Shown here one piece after another: positions 2,152-46,059 of a DNA stretch of 55,877 nt. Under the pieces are notes generated by a model that ran no database searches, was not told the origin of the DNA, and worked only from the letters and a program-made list of their open reading frames with translations. The stretch lies in NCBI GenBank assembly GCA_947466515.1, contig CANIEM010000007.1:1-55877 (forward strand), in the 5' to 3' direction. The position numbers and the translations under genes are program-made. Each line of letters begins with the position of its first letter. The stretch's first letter is position 1. This DNA is from Verrucomicrobia subdivision 6 bacterium (GTDB lineage: Bacteria > Verrucomicrobiota > Verrucomicrobiia > Methylacidiphilales > Verrucolacustridaceae).

Positions 2152-2205
2152 ACAATTGCAGAGGCAAAGGAAAATTTTGAGCAAAATACAACCCGTGTTT
2201 ACGAA

Positions 2206-3627
2206 TTGATCGGGAAGATCCGCGAGAGTCTTCGCGTTTTGCCGGATGAGGTCGAGGAGAGGGAGCTAAATGCTCAAATTCGGGAAGATGTTGGTCGGAT
2301 CGAAAGCTGCTTCCGTTCGACTACGGATCTAGCCCGTTCCACTTTGGCGGCTCGGCAGGCGGGAGATCGGCCAAAGGCAAGAGAGTTATTAGATTATACA
2401 GTCAAAGGACAAACGGAATTGCGGGCGTTGCGATCAAAGTTGCAGGATGTGGGTTTCAATTTGGCGGAGCTTTCTGCGGTTTGTGCAGAAAAGCGAAAAG
2501 CCCGCGTGCTTTTCAGCAGCACGGCTACGACGTTGTTGGCAGTTGTCTTGGGCTTAGGGGCAGCTTGGATTATTTCTCACAATATGGCCAAACCCTTAAT
2601 AGCTCTTTTGACCAGGACGAAGAAGGTACAGGGCGGGGATTTATCGGCCTACGTTGGCAAACTCCCAGAGGATGAGATTGGGCAGTTGGGTGAAGGCTTC
2701 AACCTGATGGTGGACGAGCTTCGGCGGAAACAGGATTTGCAAAAGGCGATTAGTTCGTACATCGATCCAAGGATCGTCGAAAAGGTGATTTTGCCAGGTC
2801 GATCAGAGGATACGATGGGACAGAAGAGGTTGATGACGGTTCTTTTTACGGATCTGGTGGGGTTTACAACTTTAGGAGAGAATTTGACGGCGGGTGGGTT
2901 GGTGCAAGTGATTAATCGTTATTTCACCTTAATGTCGGAGTGTGTGCAGAAGGAGCGGGGAGTGATCGATAAGTATATTGGGGATGCGATTATGGCATAT
3001 TGGGGGGCTCCTTTTGTCTCGGAAGAGGAGCAGGCGGCGACGGCGTGTCGGGCGGCATTGGCGCAGGTGGAGACTTTAACTCGTTTCCGTGCGGAGTTGC
3101 CCGATTTGATGGGGTTACGAAAAAATCTTCCTGAGATTAATCTGCGTATCGGAATTGCGACAGGGGAAGTGGTGGTGGGGAATATTGGGAGTGAAACGGC
3201 GCGAAGTTATACAGTGATGGGTGATACGGTGAATTTAGCATCGCGGTTGGAGTCAGCCAACACGATGTACGGCACGCGGATTCTGATTTCGGAAATGACA
3301 CAGAGGATGGTCGATAAGGAGATGGAATCGCGGGAGGTGGATTTTCTGGCGGTGAAGGGGAAGCAGGATGCTGTAGGAGTTTTTGAGTTATTGGGACGGA
3401 CAGGAGTTGTGGATGCGGGGACTCGCGCTCTGAATGAGGCTTATGGCGCTGCTTTGGCTCACTATCGGAGTCAGAAATGGGATGAGGCGACTGTCGGATT
3501 TCGGCGTTGTTTAGAAATTCGGGGTGAAGACGGACCGTCCTTTGAAATGCTGACACGAATTCCGCACTTCAAAAAGAATCCACCCCCGAACAATTGGAAT
3601 GGTTCTTGGCAAAGTTTATCAAAGTAG
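2206..3627 (+). CDS. Class III adenylate/guanylate cyclase with HAMP domain (main part of the interrupted gene)
   Basis: This 473-residue frame (TTG 2206 is the first usable start after the TAA at 2149) holds the rest of the sensor, a membrane helix at about residues 101-125, a HAMP domain (about 127-180) and a CHD cyclase domain (about 205-390). Catalytic features are visible: FTDLVGFTTL with the first metal aspartate, DKYIGDAIMAYWG with the purine-contacting lysine and second metal aspartate, and the MGDTVNLASRLE segment. The lysine and aspartate suggest ATP rather than GTP, which is inference. The tail (YRSQKWDEA, then PPPNNWNGSW) is TPR-like and closely matches the tail of the partial cyclase at 55302-55877. 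Without its first membrane helix the sensor may not work. Confidence 0.8.
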   Translation: MIGKIRESLRVLPDEVEERELNAQIREDVGRIESCFRSTTDLARSTLAARQAGDRPKARELLDYTVKGQTELRALRSKLQDVGFNLAELSAVCAEKRKARVLFSSTATTLLAVVLGLGAAWIISHNMAKPLIALLTRTKKVQGGDLSAYVGKLPEDEIGQLGEGFNLMVDELRRKQDLQKAISSYIDPRIVEKVILPGRSEDTMGQKRLMTVLFTDLVGFTTLGENLTAGGLVQVINRYFTLMSECVQKERGVIDKYIGDAIMAYWGAPFVSEEEQAATACRAALAQVETLTRFRAELPDLMGLRKNLPEINLRIGIATGEVVVGNIGSETARSYTVMGDTVNLASRLESANTMYGTRILISEMTQRMVDKEMESREVDFLAVKGKQDAVGVFELLGRTGVVDAGTRALNEAYGAALAHYRSQKWDEATVGFRRCLEIRGEDGPSFEMLTRIPHFKKNPPPNNWNGSWQSLSK

Positions 3628-40232: not shown

Positions 40233-40303
40233 GGGAAGAGAATGTCGCTAGAAGTGGCGCAGGCCAACGGTTTTCGTAAAAGTTCTTCGCAAACTCATGG
40301 TGG

Positions 40304-41767
40304 CTAGGAAGGTTTATTTTCTCGTTTGCCTTGGATATGATAAAGCTGTCTGTGGCCTAGATCCTTTACCTCCTGTTTGCCTGCAGGAGTTAAGATATAA
40401 TGCTTATCAAGCGATTGAAAAACTTCGGATGAAGTTAGAATCGTGTCGGGATGGGCCAATCGCTCTAAGCGGGCGGCAAAGTTTACGGTGTCCCCCCAAA
40501 GGTCGTAGCCAAGTTTCTGTTTGCCGACGACTCCTGCAATGACGGGTCCACGGTGAAGACCCATGCGCAGGGATAAAGGAATTTGAGCTGGGGTGATTAT
40601 CTTTTTGGCATGCTGCAGAAGATGGATAGCAAAGTCTGCGAGCAGGGAAAGATGGATGGGGCGCGCTTCTGTCAAACCGCTGACCGCAAGAAAAGAGTCG
40701 CCGATAGTCTTTATTTTTTCGATGCCGTAACGACTAGTTAGAGATTCCATCCACTCGAAGGTAAGGCTTAGGAAGGCGATGATATCTTTCGGGGTGGTGG
40801 TGTGGGTTAGTCTTGTAAAGCCGACGATATCGACAAAGAGTACGCCGACATCTGGGGCTAAATCTGCGATTGGATTTTCGCCTTTCATTGCGCGGCCTGC
40901 GATGTGGGAGGGAAAAATATTAAGAACAAGATGTCGACGGGATTCTTCCTCACGGCGGAGGCGAGTCATAGCATTCGAGAGGCGCTCTTCAGCCAATTTT
41001 GTGCGCACGGCGTAATCGAGTCGGACAAGAAGTTCTTTTCGGTCGTAGGGCTTTTGCAGGAAATCGACTGCCCCTAAGCGCATGGCATCGAGAAAAACGT
41101 TGCGATCTCCCTCAGCAGAAATGAGAATGACAGGAGCGCGGTGAGCGAGGTTGGTCTCGTGGTAACGACTTAGAAATGTCCGAGCCCCGCCTCCTGGCAT
41201 ATTCCAATCTAAAAGTATGGCGTCGTAGTCTTGGGTGAGCGCTCGCTCGATTCCCTCTTCGAGGGAACCGACCGCGACGCCAACATGGCCCGCATCTTCG
41301 CAAATGCGGGTGGCCATCTCTTGCTCACCGGAATCGTCGTCAACGATAAGAATTGTTCCTTGAGGGCGACCGATTTGGGGGTGGGTTACTGGGGCGGGAT
41401 GATCGACAGTGACGACCGGATCCTCGCGATTTCTAAGAATAACGCCCGCTTTATTGAGGGCTTGCTGAAAGCGGGTAAGGTCTTCGATCGGGGCGTGAGG
41501 CATATGCTTAAGGCCCTGCACGATCTCAATTATCTGGTCTAGGATAGGCAGGCAGAGTTCTGCGAGTGTTTCGCTGGACGGGATAGAATCAGATTCTCGC
41601 TCCCAATTTCTAGCGTGGGCGAGGAGCTTAGCTGAAAGGAATTTAAGCTGAGGTGCGGTATCGGGGGGGGTGGCACCCAGTCGCTGGTAATCCTCGAGGA
41701 TGAAATCGGCGTATCCCTTCATCTGCCCGAAGGCAGTGAAAATATCGTGGCGGAATCTTGATCTCAT
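40304..41767 (-). CDS. Response regulator with HisKA-like N-terminus and class III cyclase output
   Basis: 487 residues, cytoplasmic. The N-terminal RHDIFTAFGQMKGYADFILEDY (H7) resembles a histidine-kinase dimerisation helix but has no ATPase domain after it. A receiver domain follows (about 136-255), with acidic VDDD, phosphoacceptor D187 and K239. The CHD cyclase domain (about 300-487) has FVDIVGFTRL (D313), KIKTIGDSF (K353, D357) and LWGDTVNFAARLE. These residues favour adenylate cyclase activity controlled by phosphorylation. ATG 41767 was chosen because the upstream extension is low-complexity. The lone receiver gene ends 64 bp upstream, so the pair may share a phosphorelay, perhaps with the kinase fusion at 42968. 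Confidence 0.87.
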   Translation of the reverse strand: MRSRFRHDIFTAFGQMKGYADFILEDYQRLGATPPDTAPQLKFLSAKLLAHARNWERESDSIPSSETLAELCLPILDQIIEIVQGLKHMPHAPIEDLTRFQQALNKAGVILRNREDPVVTVDHPAPVTHPQIGRPQGTILIVDDDSGEQEMATRICEDAGHVGVAVGSLEEGIERALTQDYDAILLDWNMPGGGARTFLSRYHETNLAHRAPVILISAEGDRNVFLDAMRLGAVDFLQKPYDRKELLVRLDYAVRTKLAEERLSNAMTRLRREEESRRHLVLNIFPSHIAGRAMKGENPIADLAPDVGVLFVDIVGFTRLTHTTTPKDIIAFLSLTFEWMESLTSRYGIEKIKTIGDSFLAVSGLTEARPIHLSLLADFAIHLLQHAKKIITPAQIPLSLRMGLHRGPVIAGVVGKQKLGYDLWGDTVNFAARLERLAHPDTILTSSEVFQSLDKHYILTPAGKQEVKDLGHRQLYHIQGKRENKPS

Positions 41768-41831
41768 AAGATGAATTACCTGAAAGACATATTCCGTGGG
41801 ATAGAGGGTAGGAAGAACCAGATATCCAGGG

Positions 41832-42251
41832 TCATAGAAGGGATAGCGCTTGGCGGATGGCGGAGATGAGGAGTTCGAAGTCGAGAGGCTTGGGAAAAAA
41901 AGCATGAAAGCCAGCGGTCTTTGTTTTGGCAACGACCTGTTCGGTTTCGGATGCGGAAATAGCAAAAAAGATGATATGCGCTAAACTGGGTTTGGAGATG
42001 AACTGGGCAATAGTTTCGTACCCGCTCCAACCCCCAAGGTGAAGATCGATCAGGGCAAGTTGGGGGGGTTGTTCCAAGGCGGAGCGCATAGCCTCCTCTC
42101 CTGACTCAGCGGTGATGGCAGATAAACCTGCCCGCCGTAATTGCCGGGAAATTAGGTCGCGATTTAACTCGTCATCGTCGACAACGAGAATTTTTGGGGC
42201 ACCTATCGGATCAGGAATTTTGGGCGAGGAGGAATGGGAACTTAACGCCAT
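41832..42251 (-). CDS. Single-domain response regulator
   Basis: 139 residues forming one receiver domain. ILVVDDDELNRDLI gives the acidic pocket, LALIDLHLGG holds the phosphoacceptor aspartate, ISAS supplies the conserved Ser/Thr, and FPKPLDFELL the lysine. There is no output domain, so it likely relays or buffers phosphate, or acts by protein contact. ATG 42251 was preferred over 42323. It is divergent from hpf and upstream of the receiver-cyclase gene. Confidence 0.9.
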   Translation of the reverse strand: MALSSHSSSPKIPDPIGAPKILVVDDDELNRDLISRQLRRAGLSAITAESGEEAMRSALEQPPQLALIDLHLGGWSGYETIAQFISKPSLAHIIFFAISASETEQVVAKTKTAGFHAFFPKPLDFELLISAIRQALSLL

Positions 42252-42351
42252 TGCCTCATTATAGTATAGGAATAACTGTTTTGCTGAAAGGCAATTGAAA
42301 GGGCGGGGTCGATGCATCGACAAATGAATTAAAGGTGGATAGTATTCAGTT

Positions 42352-42705
42352 ATGCATATTCACATTACTCCTCGGCATCTTCCATTAACGGATGGGATCG
42401 AAATGTATGTCCACAACAAGCTCTCTCATCTGGATCACTTTGAGAGCCGAATTCTTGGCGCTCATGTGGTGCTTTGGCATGATCACAGTGCACCCCCAAA
42501 AAAGCAGTTTCGGGTCAAGGTTCACTTGGCGATTCCAGGACCGGATATTTTTGCGGAGGCAGGGGAGGAAGATCTGTATGCGGCGATCGACAAAGCGGAG
42601 GAAAAGTTGAGTAGCGAATTGCGAAAGCGTAAAACAAAAATGGTGGATCGGAAGAGGCATGTGGAAGCCCGGCGCAAGGAGAAGGCGCGGAGGTTTGGAA
42701 AGTAA
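42352..42705 (+). CDS. hpf: Ribosome hibernation-promoting factor (short HPF/RaiA type)
   Basis: A 117-residue protein of the YfiA/HPF family (MHIHITPRHLPLTDGIEMYVHNKLSHL, then the acidic EAGEEDLYAAIDKAEEKLSSELRKRK and a basic tail). It binds the 30S subunit at the mRNA/tRNA channel under slow growth. The length indicates the short form without the dimerisation domain of long HPF. It is divergent from the receiver gene across 100 bp. The 262 bp that follow hold no gene. Confidence 0.93.
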   Translation: MHIHITPRHLPLTDGIEMYVHNKLSHLDHFESRILGAHVVLWHDHSAPPKKQFRVKVHLAIPGPDIFAEAGEEDLYAAIDKAEEKLSSELRKRKTKMVDRKRHVEARRKEKARRFGK

Positions 42706-42967
42706 GAAGATATTCGGAATGGTTTTGAGGCTGGACCGAGGTTGCTTTCGAGAATAGGGCAATCTCGACTACAGGTGAGAAATCGCGGCTGGCTACTTTC
42801 TGATTTCTTCCGTTTCAAATCGAGTTAGCGTAGCTCGATGAGGTGGCATTATTCTCGGGGGTGCTCGGTGGCATAATTTCTTTATAAAAACGGCACCCAT
42901 AGATCCAACTTCAGTCGGGCGCGCGCATCCGCGGACCATCGGGTGGTTTGGTACGACGGCGCTAGCG

Positions 42968-45952
42968 ATGGGTGGAAGTAATCAGATGCTGTTTATTCTT
43001 GGGGCTCTTTTCGTTGGGCAAGGGAGCATCTCGGGTCAGGGGAGCGCGGCAGTTCCTCTACTTATTTTGGGACTGATTCTAAGTTGGATGGCGTTGCCTG
43101 GATGGACGGAGCTGATCCTGATGTGGCCGAATCGCATTGGGGGAATCGCGGCGACTTGTGCTGAGGCATTCCGCCCTTACAGCCCAGTTTTAGCCAATCT
43201 GACGGGAGTTTGTTACTGGTGGGGTTGGGTGCCGACCTGTGGCATCACCGCCTTGCTGTCGGCCTCGGCGATTACCCAGTGGTTTCTTCCGGCAGTTTCT
43301 CCCACCCTTTTGGCGATTGGAATTATATCGGTTTTTACAGGGATCAATATTTGCGGTGTGAAATGGGCAACGCGCTTGGCGATCCCGATTGCCTGTGCCT
43401 CGGGGCTTCTCGCTTTTCTCTCGGCCCTTATCCCGATCTTCGCGGGCAAAGTAGATTGGGTGCAGGCCTCGACTTTTCAACTTACGACTCCGTTTCCAGG
43501 ATTATTCGGACAGATCACAAGTGCGATGGCTGGTTTGTATTTAATTGGATTTGCCGCCCCAGCCTTCGAGCAAGCCTCATGCCACGTGGGGGAGACGATC
43601 GATCCGAATCGAAATGTGCCCCGTGCGATGTATGCCAGTGCGGGCATGGCGACACTCTTTTTTGGGGTTTTGCCTATCGTTTGGTTAGGGACGCTTGGTC
43701 CAGAACCATTGGGAAAAGATTTGGCTTTAGAATTAGGCCCGACCTTTGCCCCGCTCTTCGGGGCAGGCGCTAAGGCGGCGGCGATCGCTTTCATGATGTT
43801 CAACATGTTTCACGGGACGCTGGCTCCTCTGGCGGGTTCCGTGCGTACGCTGTCGCAACTTTCGGAAGATGGGCTACTGCCTCGAATTTTTGCGAATCGG
43901 GCCCGTACGGATACTCCGTGGATCGCCACGCTTTTCACCGCGGGAATGGCAATTGTTTTTCTCCTGATTGGAGACCCTATTTGGCTGATTGCAGCGGCAA
44001 ATTTAACATATTTGATCGGGATTTCCTTGCCGAGCATCGCAGTTTGGTTGTTGCGTCGGGATGCGCCCGATATGGTACGTCCCTATCGAGCTCCACGTGG
44101 CACAATTATGATGGGTGTGGTAGCTGCACTGGTTTGGGGTCTATCGACGGTACTCGGCTTTCAGCAGTTTGGTTTGCCGACGGTTTTGGCGGGAATTACC
44201 CTCGCCTATTCGGGAGCTGCACTTTATGCCTGCCGCTGTTTTTCCGATCGTCGACGGGCGGGGTTACCTGGGATCGCACGGACTCTGCATGTTAAGTTGA
44301 CTGGGGCCATGCTCGCGGTTCTTTTACTCGATGGAGCGGGCTACTACCTCGCGGTACATTTTGTCCCAGGGGATCAAAAAGCACTGGTTGCGGCGCTGGC
44401 TGACATATTCGTGGTGGTGGCCTTACTGACGATCACGGTAGGGCTGGTGCTTCCTGGAATGATCGCTCATTCGGCGGTGGAAGTTTCTAAAGCTGCGGTG
44501 AAATTAGCGACAGGCACACTGATGGATTTCTCTCGAGCGATGTCCGCCTTGGCAGAAGGTAATTTAGATGAGGCCAAGGCTAAGGTAGATTATGCGCCTG
44601 TTTCCGTTCATGGCCGAGACGAAATCGGGCAGATGGCTGCAAGTTTTAATGTGTTGCAGGAAGAGGTAGCACGGGCCGCAGTGGGGCTAAATGGGGCACG
44701 GGAAGGATTGCGGACAGCAAGGACAGCGCTGACGGAAAGTCATAGTCGACTCGAGCAGCAGGTGATTCTGCGTACGGAAGGGCTAAATCAAGCCAAGGAA
44801 GAGGCAGAGCGCGCGAACTGGGAGAAAAGCGCTTTTCTATCTCGGATGAGTCATGAACTGCGGACCCCGCTCAATGCGATTATTGGTTTCGGACAGCTAC
44901 TCCAGATGGACTCGAAGGCCAATCAAGGAGATCGGGAGAGCGTAGAAAATATTCTGACGGCAGGGCGTCATCTTTTGGGATTAATCAATGAAGTACTGGA
45001 TTTGGCGAGAATCGAATCGGGTCATTTAGACTTCTCTCTTCGTCCAGTGAAGTTGAATGAGAGCCTGAACGAAGTGATTGCTCTTCTTGGTCAAGATGCA
45101 GCGCATGCGAACGTACGAATTTTTTGTGAAGGAGCGCAAAATGAGCGCTTGGTGCTAGCGGATCCGAAGCGTCTGAGGCAGGTATTGATTAATCTTTTGG
45201 CTAATGCGGTTAAGTACAACCGTAGTGGAGGTCTTGTGACTGTGGAATATGCTGATTCCGGGCCGAATGAGCTATGCATTCGGATCAAGGATACGGGAAT
45301 AGGAATTCCTGCTGACCAATTGTCTAATCTATTTGTTCCTTTCTCGAGATTAGGGGCTGAAAATACAGATATCGAGGGATCGGGGCTTGGGTTAGCTGTT
45401 TCTAAAAAACTGGTCGACGCGATGGGAGGAGCGATAGAGGTAGAGAGCGTTCATGGGCAAGGTTCCATTTTCTCAGTGGTGTTGCCCACAGTCGAGGCTT
45501 CGGACTTTACCGAGAATTCGGAGAAGAAGGATACTGCTAAGCCGTTTTCCGATCGTGGTGGGGGGCGGCGACAGGCGGTTCTGTATATTGAGGATAACAG
45601 TTCGAATCGGCGGCTGGTGCAACGTGTTTTGGAGCCTCGTTCCGATATTCGACTGATTTTAGCGGCTAAGGGGGAGACAGGCTTGATGATGATGGAGGAG
45701 CATCTTCCTTCGGTTGTCTTACTGGACCTGCAGTTGCCTGATATCTCAGGAGAGGAAGTTCTGGCCCGTCTGCGTGGCAATCCAAAAACTGAAAAAACTC
45801 AGGTGATTGTGCTTAGCGCGGACGCGACCCCCGCGACGATTGATCGCTTGCGAGAAGCTGGGGCGAACGATTATCTGACCAAACCATTCGATGTAGCTAA
45901 GTTGGTGAAAATGATTGATGTGGCCCTGGTGAATTGCGATTCCGCGAAATAG
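42968..45952 (+). CDS. APC-family permease fused to HAMP, histidine kinase and receiver (transporter-type hybrid sensor kinase)
   Basis: 994 residues. Residues 1-515 are an amino-acid/polyamine permease-like membrane region with about 12-13 helices. It carries APC loop features (SCHVGETIDPNRNVPRAMYAS; LSQLSEDGLLPRIFANRARTDTPWIATL; RPYRAPRG). A HAMP domain follows (about 522-575), then a coiled coil, HisKA (H629 in SHELRTPLNAIIGF) and HATPase (NLLANAVKYN, DTGIGIP, GSGLGLAVSKKL). A receiver ends the chain, with D920 in VLLDLQLPD. It probably senses, and may transport, an amino acid or amine at the inner membrane and passes phosphate to its own receiver. The permease reading appears to extend upstream of ATG 42968, because codons 42899-42967 read like the cytoplasmic lead-in of APC helix 1. 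No ATG, GTG or TTG lies in frame there before the TGA at 42839. Confidence 0.88.
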   Translation: MGGSNQMLFILGALFVGQGSISGQGSAAVPLLILGLILSWMALPGWTELILMWPNRIGGIAATCAEAFRPYSPVLANLTGVCYWWGWVPTCGITALLSASAITQWFLPAVSPTLLAIGIISVFTGINICGVKWATRLAIPIACASGLLAFLSALIPIFAGKVDWVQASTFQLTTPFPGLFGQITSAMAGLYLIGFAAPAFEQASCHVGETIDPNRNVPRAMYASAGMATLFFGVLPIVWLGTLGPEPLGKDLALELGPTFAPLFGAGAKAAAIAFMMFNMFHGTLAPLAGSVRTLSQLSEDGLLPRIFANRARTDTPWIATLFTAGMAIVFLLIGDPIWLIAAANLTYLIGISLPSIAVWLLRRDAPDMVRPYRAPRGTIMMGVVAALVWGLSTVLGFQQFGLPTVLAGITLAYSGAALYACRCFSDRRRAGLPGIARTLHVKLTGAMLAVLLLDGAGYYLAVHFVPGDQKALVAALADIFVVVALLTITVGLVLPGMIAHSAVEVSKAAVKLATGTLMDFSRAMSALAEGNLDEAKAKVDYAPVSVHGRDEIGQMAASFNVLQEEVARAAVGLNGAREGLRTARTALTESHSRLEQQVILRTEGLNQAKEEAERANWEKSAFLSRMSHELRTPLNAIIGFGQLLQMDSKANQGDRESVENILTAGRHLLGLINEVLDLARIESGHLDFSLRPVKLNESLNEVIALLGQDAAHANVRIFCEGAQNERLVLADPKRLRQVLINLLANAVKYNRSGGLVTVEYADSGPNELCIRIKDTGIGIPADQLSNLFVPFSRLGAENTDIEGSGLGLAVSKKLVDAMGGAIEVESVHGQGSIFSVVLPTVEASDFTENSEKKDTAKPFSDRGGGRRQAVLYIEDNSSNRRLVQRVLEPRSDIRLILAAKGETGLMMMEEHLPSVVLLDLQLPDISGEEVLARLRGNPKTEKTQVIVLSADATPATIDRLREAGANDYLTKPFDVAKLVKMIDVALVNCDSAK

Positions 45953-46059
45953 GTTGGGTGGGAAGCGCGACGGAAGAAGAACGCGCAGAGGTTCGGAAGA
46001 TAGTCGAATCTGTCTGTTTTTCTCTAAAAGGGTCGGTTTCATTAGGTACTGTTCGCTGA

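Follow-up and report, generated by a model that had tools for sequence, protein, structure and literature searches.

An APC-type carrier domain linked by HAMP to a hybrid histidine kinase in a Verrucomicrobia subdivision 6 bacterium: a portable input module and probable ligand sensor

Introduction

Prokaryotic transporter-receptors are considered rare (PMC11109136), and the SLC5/STAC histidine kinases are so far their main worked example. In these proteins, among them CbrA, CrbS and RpuS, the carrier belongs to the SLC5 family and is linked to the kinase by a STAC domain plus PAS (PMC7096432, PMC9100948, PMC13022988); they occur in many phyla (PMC9100948). CbrA transports histidine, yet histidine leaves its kinase activity unchanged and the SLC5 domain is dispensable for the kinase (PMC7096432). 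Hence, the carrier in a fused protein is not necessarily its sensor. An APC-fold nutrient sensor without a fused kinase is yeast Gap1 (PMC11109136). Here, we describe a gene in which an APC-type carrier domain is fused to a hybrid histidine kinase, found in a stretch of 55,877 nucleotides from a Verrucomicrobia subdivision 6 bacterium (contig CANIEM010000007.1), referred to below as the window.

Domain order, start codon and predicted fold

Positions 42968-45952 of the plus strand form an uninterrupted open reading frame of 994 codons, which in a Pfam scan encodes, in this order and in a single frame, an APC-type permease, HAMP, HisKA, HATPase and a receiver. The features of the gene are as follows.

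42884 to 45952, plus strand: APC-HAMP hybrid histidine kinase, likely full gene of 1022 amino acids (inferred ATA start; first ATG at 42968)
42938 to 44239, plus strand: APC (LeuT-fold) permease domain with 12 transmembrane helices (Pfam, AlphaFold2, Foldseek)
42971 to 42988, plus strand: TM1 helix break, GGSNQM in the window protein (AlphaFold2 and 75-row alignment)
43214 to 43228, plus strand: TM3 motif YWWGW, invariant in 75 of 75 rows (alignment)
43547 to 43570, plus strand: TM6 helix break GFAAPAFE, near-invariant (AlphaFold2 and alignment)
44285 to 44464, plus strand: additional transmembrane hairpin TM13-TM14, of which TM14 extends as a long helix into HAMP (AlphaFold2)
44531 to 44668, plus strand: HAMP, second helix with an invariant Asp-Glu (Pfam and alignment)
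44825 to 45022, plus strand: HisKA, phospho-acceptor His codon at 44852-44854 (Pfam and motif)
45161 to 45490, plus strand: HATPase_c, N, G1 and G2 boxes intact (Pfam and motif)
45578 to 45916, plus strand: C-terminal receiver, phospho-acceptor Asp codon at 45725-45727 (Pfam and motif)

Within the 994-codon frame, AA_permease_2 matches residues 14-397 (3.8e-31; 108.9 bits, above the gathering score of 27) and HAMP residues 522-567 (1.8e-7); AA_permease (1.3e-13), HisKA (1.3e-19), HATPase_c (1.8e-28) and Response_reg (1.1e-22) are matched as well, whereas Pfam finds no PAS or GAF domain in the protein. The H box, the N, G1 and G2 boxes and a C-terminal receiver with its phospho-acceptor Asp are all present and intact, as expected of a hybrid histidine kinase. 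A preliminary description of this DNA had arrived at the same domain order, and the motifs SEDGLLPRIFANR and RPYRAPRG as well as H629 and D920 are found where it had placed them. It had named an SLC5 or MASE N-terminus as the outcome that would overturn the APC assignment, and profile searches give no match to either. An SLC5 identity of the membrane region was rejected since Pfam returns AA_permease_2 and AA_permease only and the top Foldseek matches are APC/SLC7 carriers, and a MASE or 5TMR-type membrane domain was rejected since there is no Pfam match and the fold is that of an APC protein with 12+2 transmembrane helices.

The gene starts upstream of 42968, probably at an ATA. In the relatives described below, a near-invariant N-terminal block, HPR-x-IGW-x-GTTALAMGGSNQS, stands ahead of the APC domain, and in the window the block HPR-x-IGW-x-GTTALAM is encoded in frame upstream of the ATG at 42968, which itself falls in the middle of TM1, right at the helix break of the AlphaFold2 model. 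No in-frame ATG, GTG or TTG is present upstream of 42968. Where the closest relatives (L005 and L006) have their ATG, a base-for-base alignment puts an ATA of the window, at 42884. We take this ATA as the likely start, which would give a protein of 1022 amino acids; it may owe its existence to a start-codon mutation or to a base error. Counted from 42884, the phospho-acceptor residues become His657 and Asp948. Site residues below are counted from base 42890, to which 2 is added for numbering from the ATA.

An AlphaFold2 model of the 642-residue module, built with 75 family sequences (pLDDT 90.4, pTM 0.86), predicts a complete APC fold of twelve helices in which TM1 and TM6 are broken as in working APC carriers. 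It also contains two helices between permease and HAMP that had been overlooked previously: TM13 (466-490) and TM14, one continuous helix (497-555), which are followed by the second HAMP helix and coil (578-641). A Foldseek search of the PDB finds BasC, y+LAT1, LAT1, AdiC, GkApcT and ApcT, with TM-scores by target of up to 0.79. The centre of the domain is nearly frozen: G28, G29 and N31 in TM1, Y109-W110-W111-G112-W113 in TM3 and G220, F221, A223, P224, A225 and E227 in TM6 are invariant in all 75 alignment rows, and Q32 is kept in 74 of 75. A GQGxIxGQGS stretch in the TM1-TM2 region (window about 43000-43030) is variable among members and is missing, for example, in L055, L067 and L076.

A portable input module in at least seven phyla

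A homologue scan with residues 1-600 of the fusion as query and one genome per species yielded at least 93 related loci with the module, the best 80 of which share 51-73% identity. The search for the APC plus HisKA architecture that the preliminary description had called for thus finds the same fusion at about 80 independent loci, and the fusion is not due to chance. What had been presented as a single odd architecture is instead a widespread module joined to several output types, including c-di-GMP enzymes. The hosts span at least seven phyla and belong to the Verrucomicrobiota, Alpha-, Beta- and Gammaproteobacteria, Actinomycetota, Myxococcota, Chloroflexota, Omnitrophota and Dormiibacterota; they include the isolates Glaciimonas immobilis, Roseiarcus fermentans and Verrucomicrobia IMCC26134, and one further relative lies on a Paraburkholderia megaplasmid. 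Frequency is low and patchy: in the window's class the fusion occurs in 5 of 286 genomes, in the Roseiarcus order in 3 of 199, in the Glaciimonas order in 3 of 300 and in the Actinoplanes phylum in 1 of 297, each count including the genome on which the search was centred. Phyla are intermixed on the module tree (at least five changes for Pseudomonadota and at least six for Verrucomicrobiota), where the window sequence groups with two Chthoniobacter MAGs (SH-aLRT 97). No description of an APC-HAMP-kinase architecture was found in the open-licence full-text literature, which is weak evidence as most subscription papers lie outside it.

The module comprises the twelve permease helices and the TM13-14 pair, then HAMP and a coil. 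HAMP ends it in all 74 full-length members scanned (41/41 and 33/33), in agreement with its earlier designation as the linker, while the output that follows varies. With some classes assigned by motif (by eye or pattern) and not by Pfam match, the outputs of 74 of the 75 tree rows are HisKA (45), GGDEF-EAL (16), HWE/HisKA_2 (5), HisKA_3 (3), a VLHNVGN-type kinase (3), an NtrB-type kinase (1) and GGDEF-HD-GYP (1); PAS, GAF, receiver and Hpt domains occur as optional extras. The phospho-acceptor-like motif VLHNVGNVLNS of the VLHNVGN-type kinases was seen in the C-termini of L026, L033 and L045, from Myxococcota, Pseudomonadota and Verrucomicrobiota. Parsimony on the module tree requires at least 15 changes of output type, and for GGDEF-EAL alone at least four are forced by strongly supported branches. 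Among HisKA members, median pairwise identity is 67% for the APC domain, 63% for TM13-14, 54% for HAMP and 40% for the kinase core, hence the input is constrained far more strongly than the output; over all 75 rows TM13-14 has a median identity of 62%. APC-TM13/14-HAMP is a portable input module that has moved across outputs and between phyla.

Sensor or transporter

We hypothesize that the protein is a dedicated ligand sensor, a receptor derived from a transporter ('transceptor') that forms one unit with a hybrid histidine kinase, which we regard as probable. The complete APC-fold domain would bind one small ligand at the TM1, TM3 and TM6 breaks, and the resulting conformational change would pass through the TM13-14 hairpin to HAMP and the coiled coil, the state of which would set the autokinase/phosphatase activity at His657. 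From His657, phosphate would move to the built-in receiver at Asp948 and then to some Hpt or response regulator. The same APC-TM13/14-HAMP unit would act as input where it has been swapped onto other kinases, GGDEF-EAL or GGDEF-HD-GYP and moved between phyla. A bolder form of this proposal, to which we give somewhat less than an even chance, is that the module constitutes a receptor class of its own, non-transporting and horizontally moving, which across at least seven phyla reads one and the same ligand and passes the signal to phosphorelays or c-di-GMP turnover.

The main alternative, possible although we would not bet on it, is a bifunctional transporter-kinase in which the APC domain has kept its import function and the kinase monitors substrate flux or occupancy. 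In its favour, the 12-helix fold is complete, both helix breaks are present and highly conserved, and CbrA is a precedent for transport by a fused carrier (PMC7096432). However, the module was never seen without a signalling part in the genomes searched, where the best stand-alone permease reaches 6e-37 compared with about 1e-235 for the fusions and none is close. There is also one copy per genome, and no recurrent catabolic gene was found among the clustered ORFs neighbouring the relatives.

Whichever of these applies, the ligand should not be assumed to be an amino acid. A comparison with one canonical permease sequence shows IGGAIGTGLF in TM1 against MGGSNQS-LF in the fusion family, in which an invariant GG-x-N block and a following Q stand in place of the G-[S/T]-G carboxylate motif. 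The amino acid flux or binding suggested in the preliminary description is thus unsupported, also since among named NCBIfam models the TMAO permease NF053774 comes closest, matched by 20 of 20 members tested. This model together with several methylotroph hosts led us to consider TMAO or methylamine sensing. We keep this ligand as a lead only: the window protein scores 118 bits, far below the cut-off of 690, and most hosts are not methylotrophs. The family shares 23-28% identity with TMAO-permease-like proteins. A Methylotenera MAG carries a true TMAO permease (851 bits; G298:C8:30142-31752; L122, L124) about 26 kb from an APC-kinase fusion on the same contig. The idea that the Trp-rich TM3 forms a quaternary-amine cage was dropped, since YWxxW motifs occur commonly among APC permeases. 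Clustering of all neighbouring ORFs, aimed at a metabolic operon from which the ligand could be deduced, gave two-component and generic genes such as those for ABC ATPases. From the near-frozen central site we infer that all members may read the same or very similar ligands.

Neighboring receivers and apparent recent gain of the window copy

Two genes close to the fusion had been put forward as recipients of its signal, and Pfam bears out their identity.

41832 to 42251, minus strand: stand-alone receiver, putative partner (Pfam and motif)
40304 to 41767, minus strand: receiver plus class III adenylate/guanylate cyclase, putative partner (Pfam)

This pair is divergent from the fusion gene, with an HPF-like gene between. 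Hybrid kinases and response regulators are recurrent neighbors of the relatives, often directly adjoining, and the regulators are of the receiver-EAL, receiver-GGDEF-EAL, receiver-HD-GYP and OmpR types. No relative, in contrast, has a cyclase/receiver pair beside its fusion, so that the proposed wiring to the two receivers is possible but unsupported. The cyclase was likewise rejected as a conserved partner, as the relatives' loci gave only two weak matches to the catalytic domain, both in GGDEF-EAL members. Elsewhere in the window, the open frame at 2152-3624 (plus strand) weakly matches the catalytic domain of class III cyclases (2e-8) and may be a second cyclase.

The fusion gene is absent from all 20 congeners, none of which has a full-length match to the cyclase at 40304-41767 either. 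In two of them, G003 and G012, about 0.55 kb containing HPF alone separates ispF from a PlsC-like gene, and the DNA of both agrees with the window as far as 40291, again at HPF (about 42315-42352 to 42700) and again from 45961. This broken match places the fusion in an insertion between HPF and the acyltransferase gene, and the cyclase-receiver pair in a second insertion before HPF.

42699 to 45960: insertion carrying the fusion gene; congeners G003 and G012 lack it

Just past the fusion stop, 45968-46003 encodes a remnant, RRKKNAQRFGR followed by a stop, that is homologous to the C-terminus of HPF, which points to recombination at HPF as the way in which the block arrived. The interval from ispF to the PlsC-like gene (40292-46003) is a variable spot, empty in some congeners and filled with other cargo elsewhere: G001 and G004 have, as judged by eye, an unrelated porin-like gene at this spot (L165:1207-2697, L166:1148-2569), with an N-terminus of the signal-peptide type. 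Hence, the window genome seems to have acquired the fusion recently. Over the whole window, GGAGG is over-represented (307 compared with 231 expected), seemingly mostly on the plus strand.

Lacking an ATG at the conserved start, the window copy may be poorly expressed. ATA or ATT starts can function at low level. That the gene is a recently acquired copy which is barely expressed or decaying we regard as unlikely: the ATA in place of the relatives' ATG, without GTG or TTG as a substitute, and the absence from every congener at an insertion-prone spot would fit such a copy, but about 1020 codons are free of stops, all catalytic motifs are intact and an ATA start is not necessarily silent.

Less probable still is that the APC domain serves as anchor or scaffold, with the signal being sensed elsewhere, on the cytosolic side, through the state of the membrane or by another protein. 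The CbrA kinase works without its SLC5 domain (PMC7096432) and some members of the present family have PAS or GAF domains, but the window protein has neither, and an anchor would not need a module that is the best conserved part of the protein with central residues invariant across phyla. An assembly or ORF artefact joining a permease gene to a kinase gene can be discarded with near certainty, as the same junction, with conserved TM13-14 and HAMP, recurs in about 80 homologues from unrelated assemblies, isolates included.

Comparison with known systems

If our reading as a sensor is correct, the family described here would be a second, independent one in which to test whether fused carriers sense or transport; several cultured hosts exist, with kinase versions in Roseiarcus fermentans, Actinoplanes palleronii and Verrucomicrobia IMCC26134 and a GGDEF-EAL version in Glaciimonas immobilis, and HAMP is a well-understood, swappable linker for reporters. 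Similar to AdiC, BasC, GkApcT and LAT1, members of AA_permease_2, the proteins have the 12-helix fold with broken TM1 and TM6. Unlike such permeases, they carry GG-x-N-Q in place of the TM1 G-[S/T]-G and add TM13-14, HAMP and a signalling output. With the TMAO permease NF053774 they share the W-x-x-W of TM3 and the FE-x-A-x-C features of TM6; apart from the low identity and score given above, they differ in that the true NF053774 members found are unfused. Yeast Ssy1 and GerAB of spore germination are, like Gap1, APC-fold sensors without a fused kinase. In all three the APC-family fold serves sensing, but none is coupled to HAMP or fused to a bacterial kinase or c-di-GMP enzyme. As in CbrA, CrbS/MxtR and RpuS, an N-terminal carrier of the LeuT superfamily is joined to a (hybrid) histidine kinase. 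The difference from CbrA-like proteins claimed in the preliminary description nevertheless stands, since the carrier is of the APC family and not SLC5/SSS and the linker is a transmembrane hairpin plus HAMP, apparently in place of STAC-PAS; the APC module, in addition, also joins GGDEF-EAL and HD-GYP outputs. The APC-HAMP fusions are analogous to the SLC5/STAC kinases yet lie outside them, and are a variation on the theme of transporter-fused kinases.
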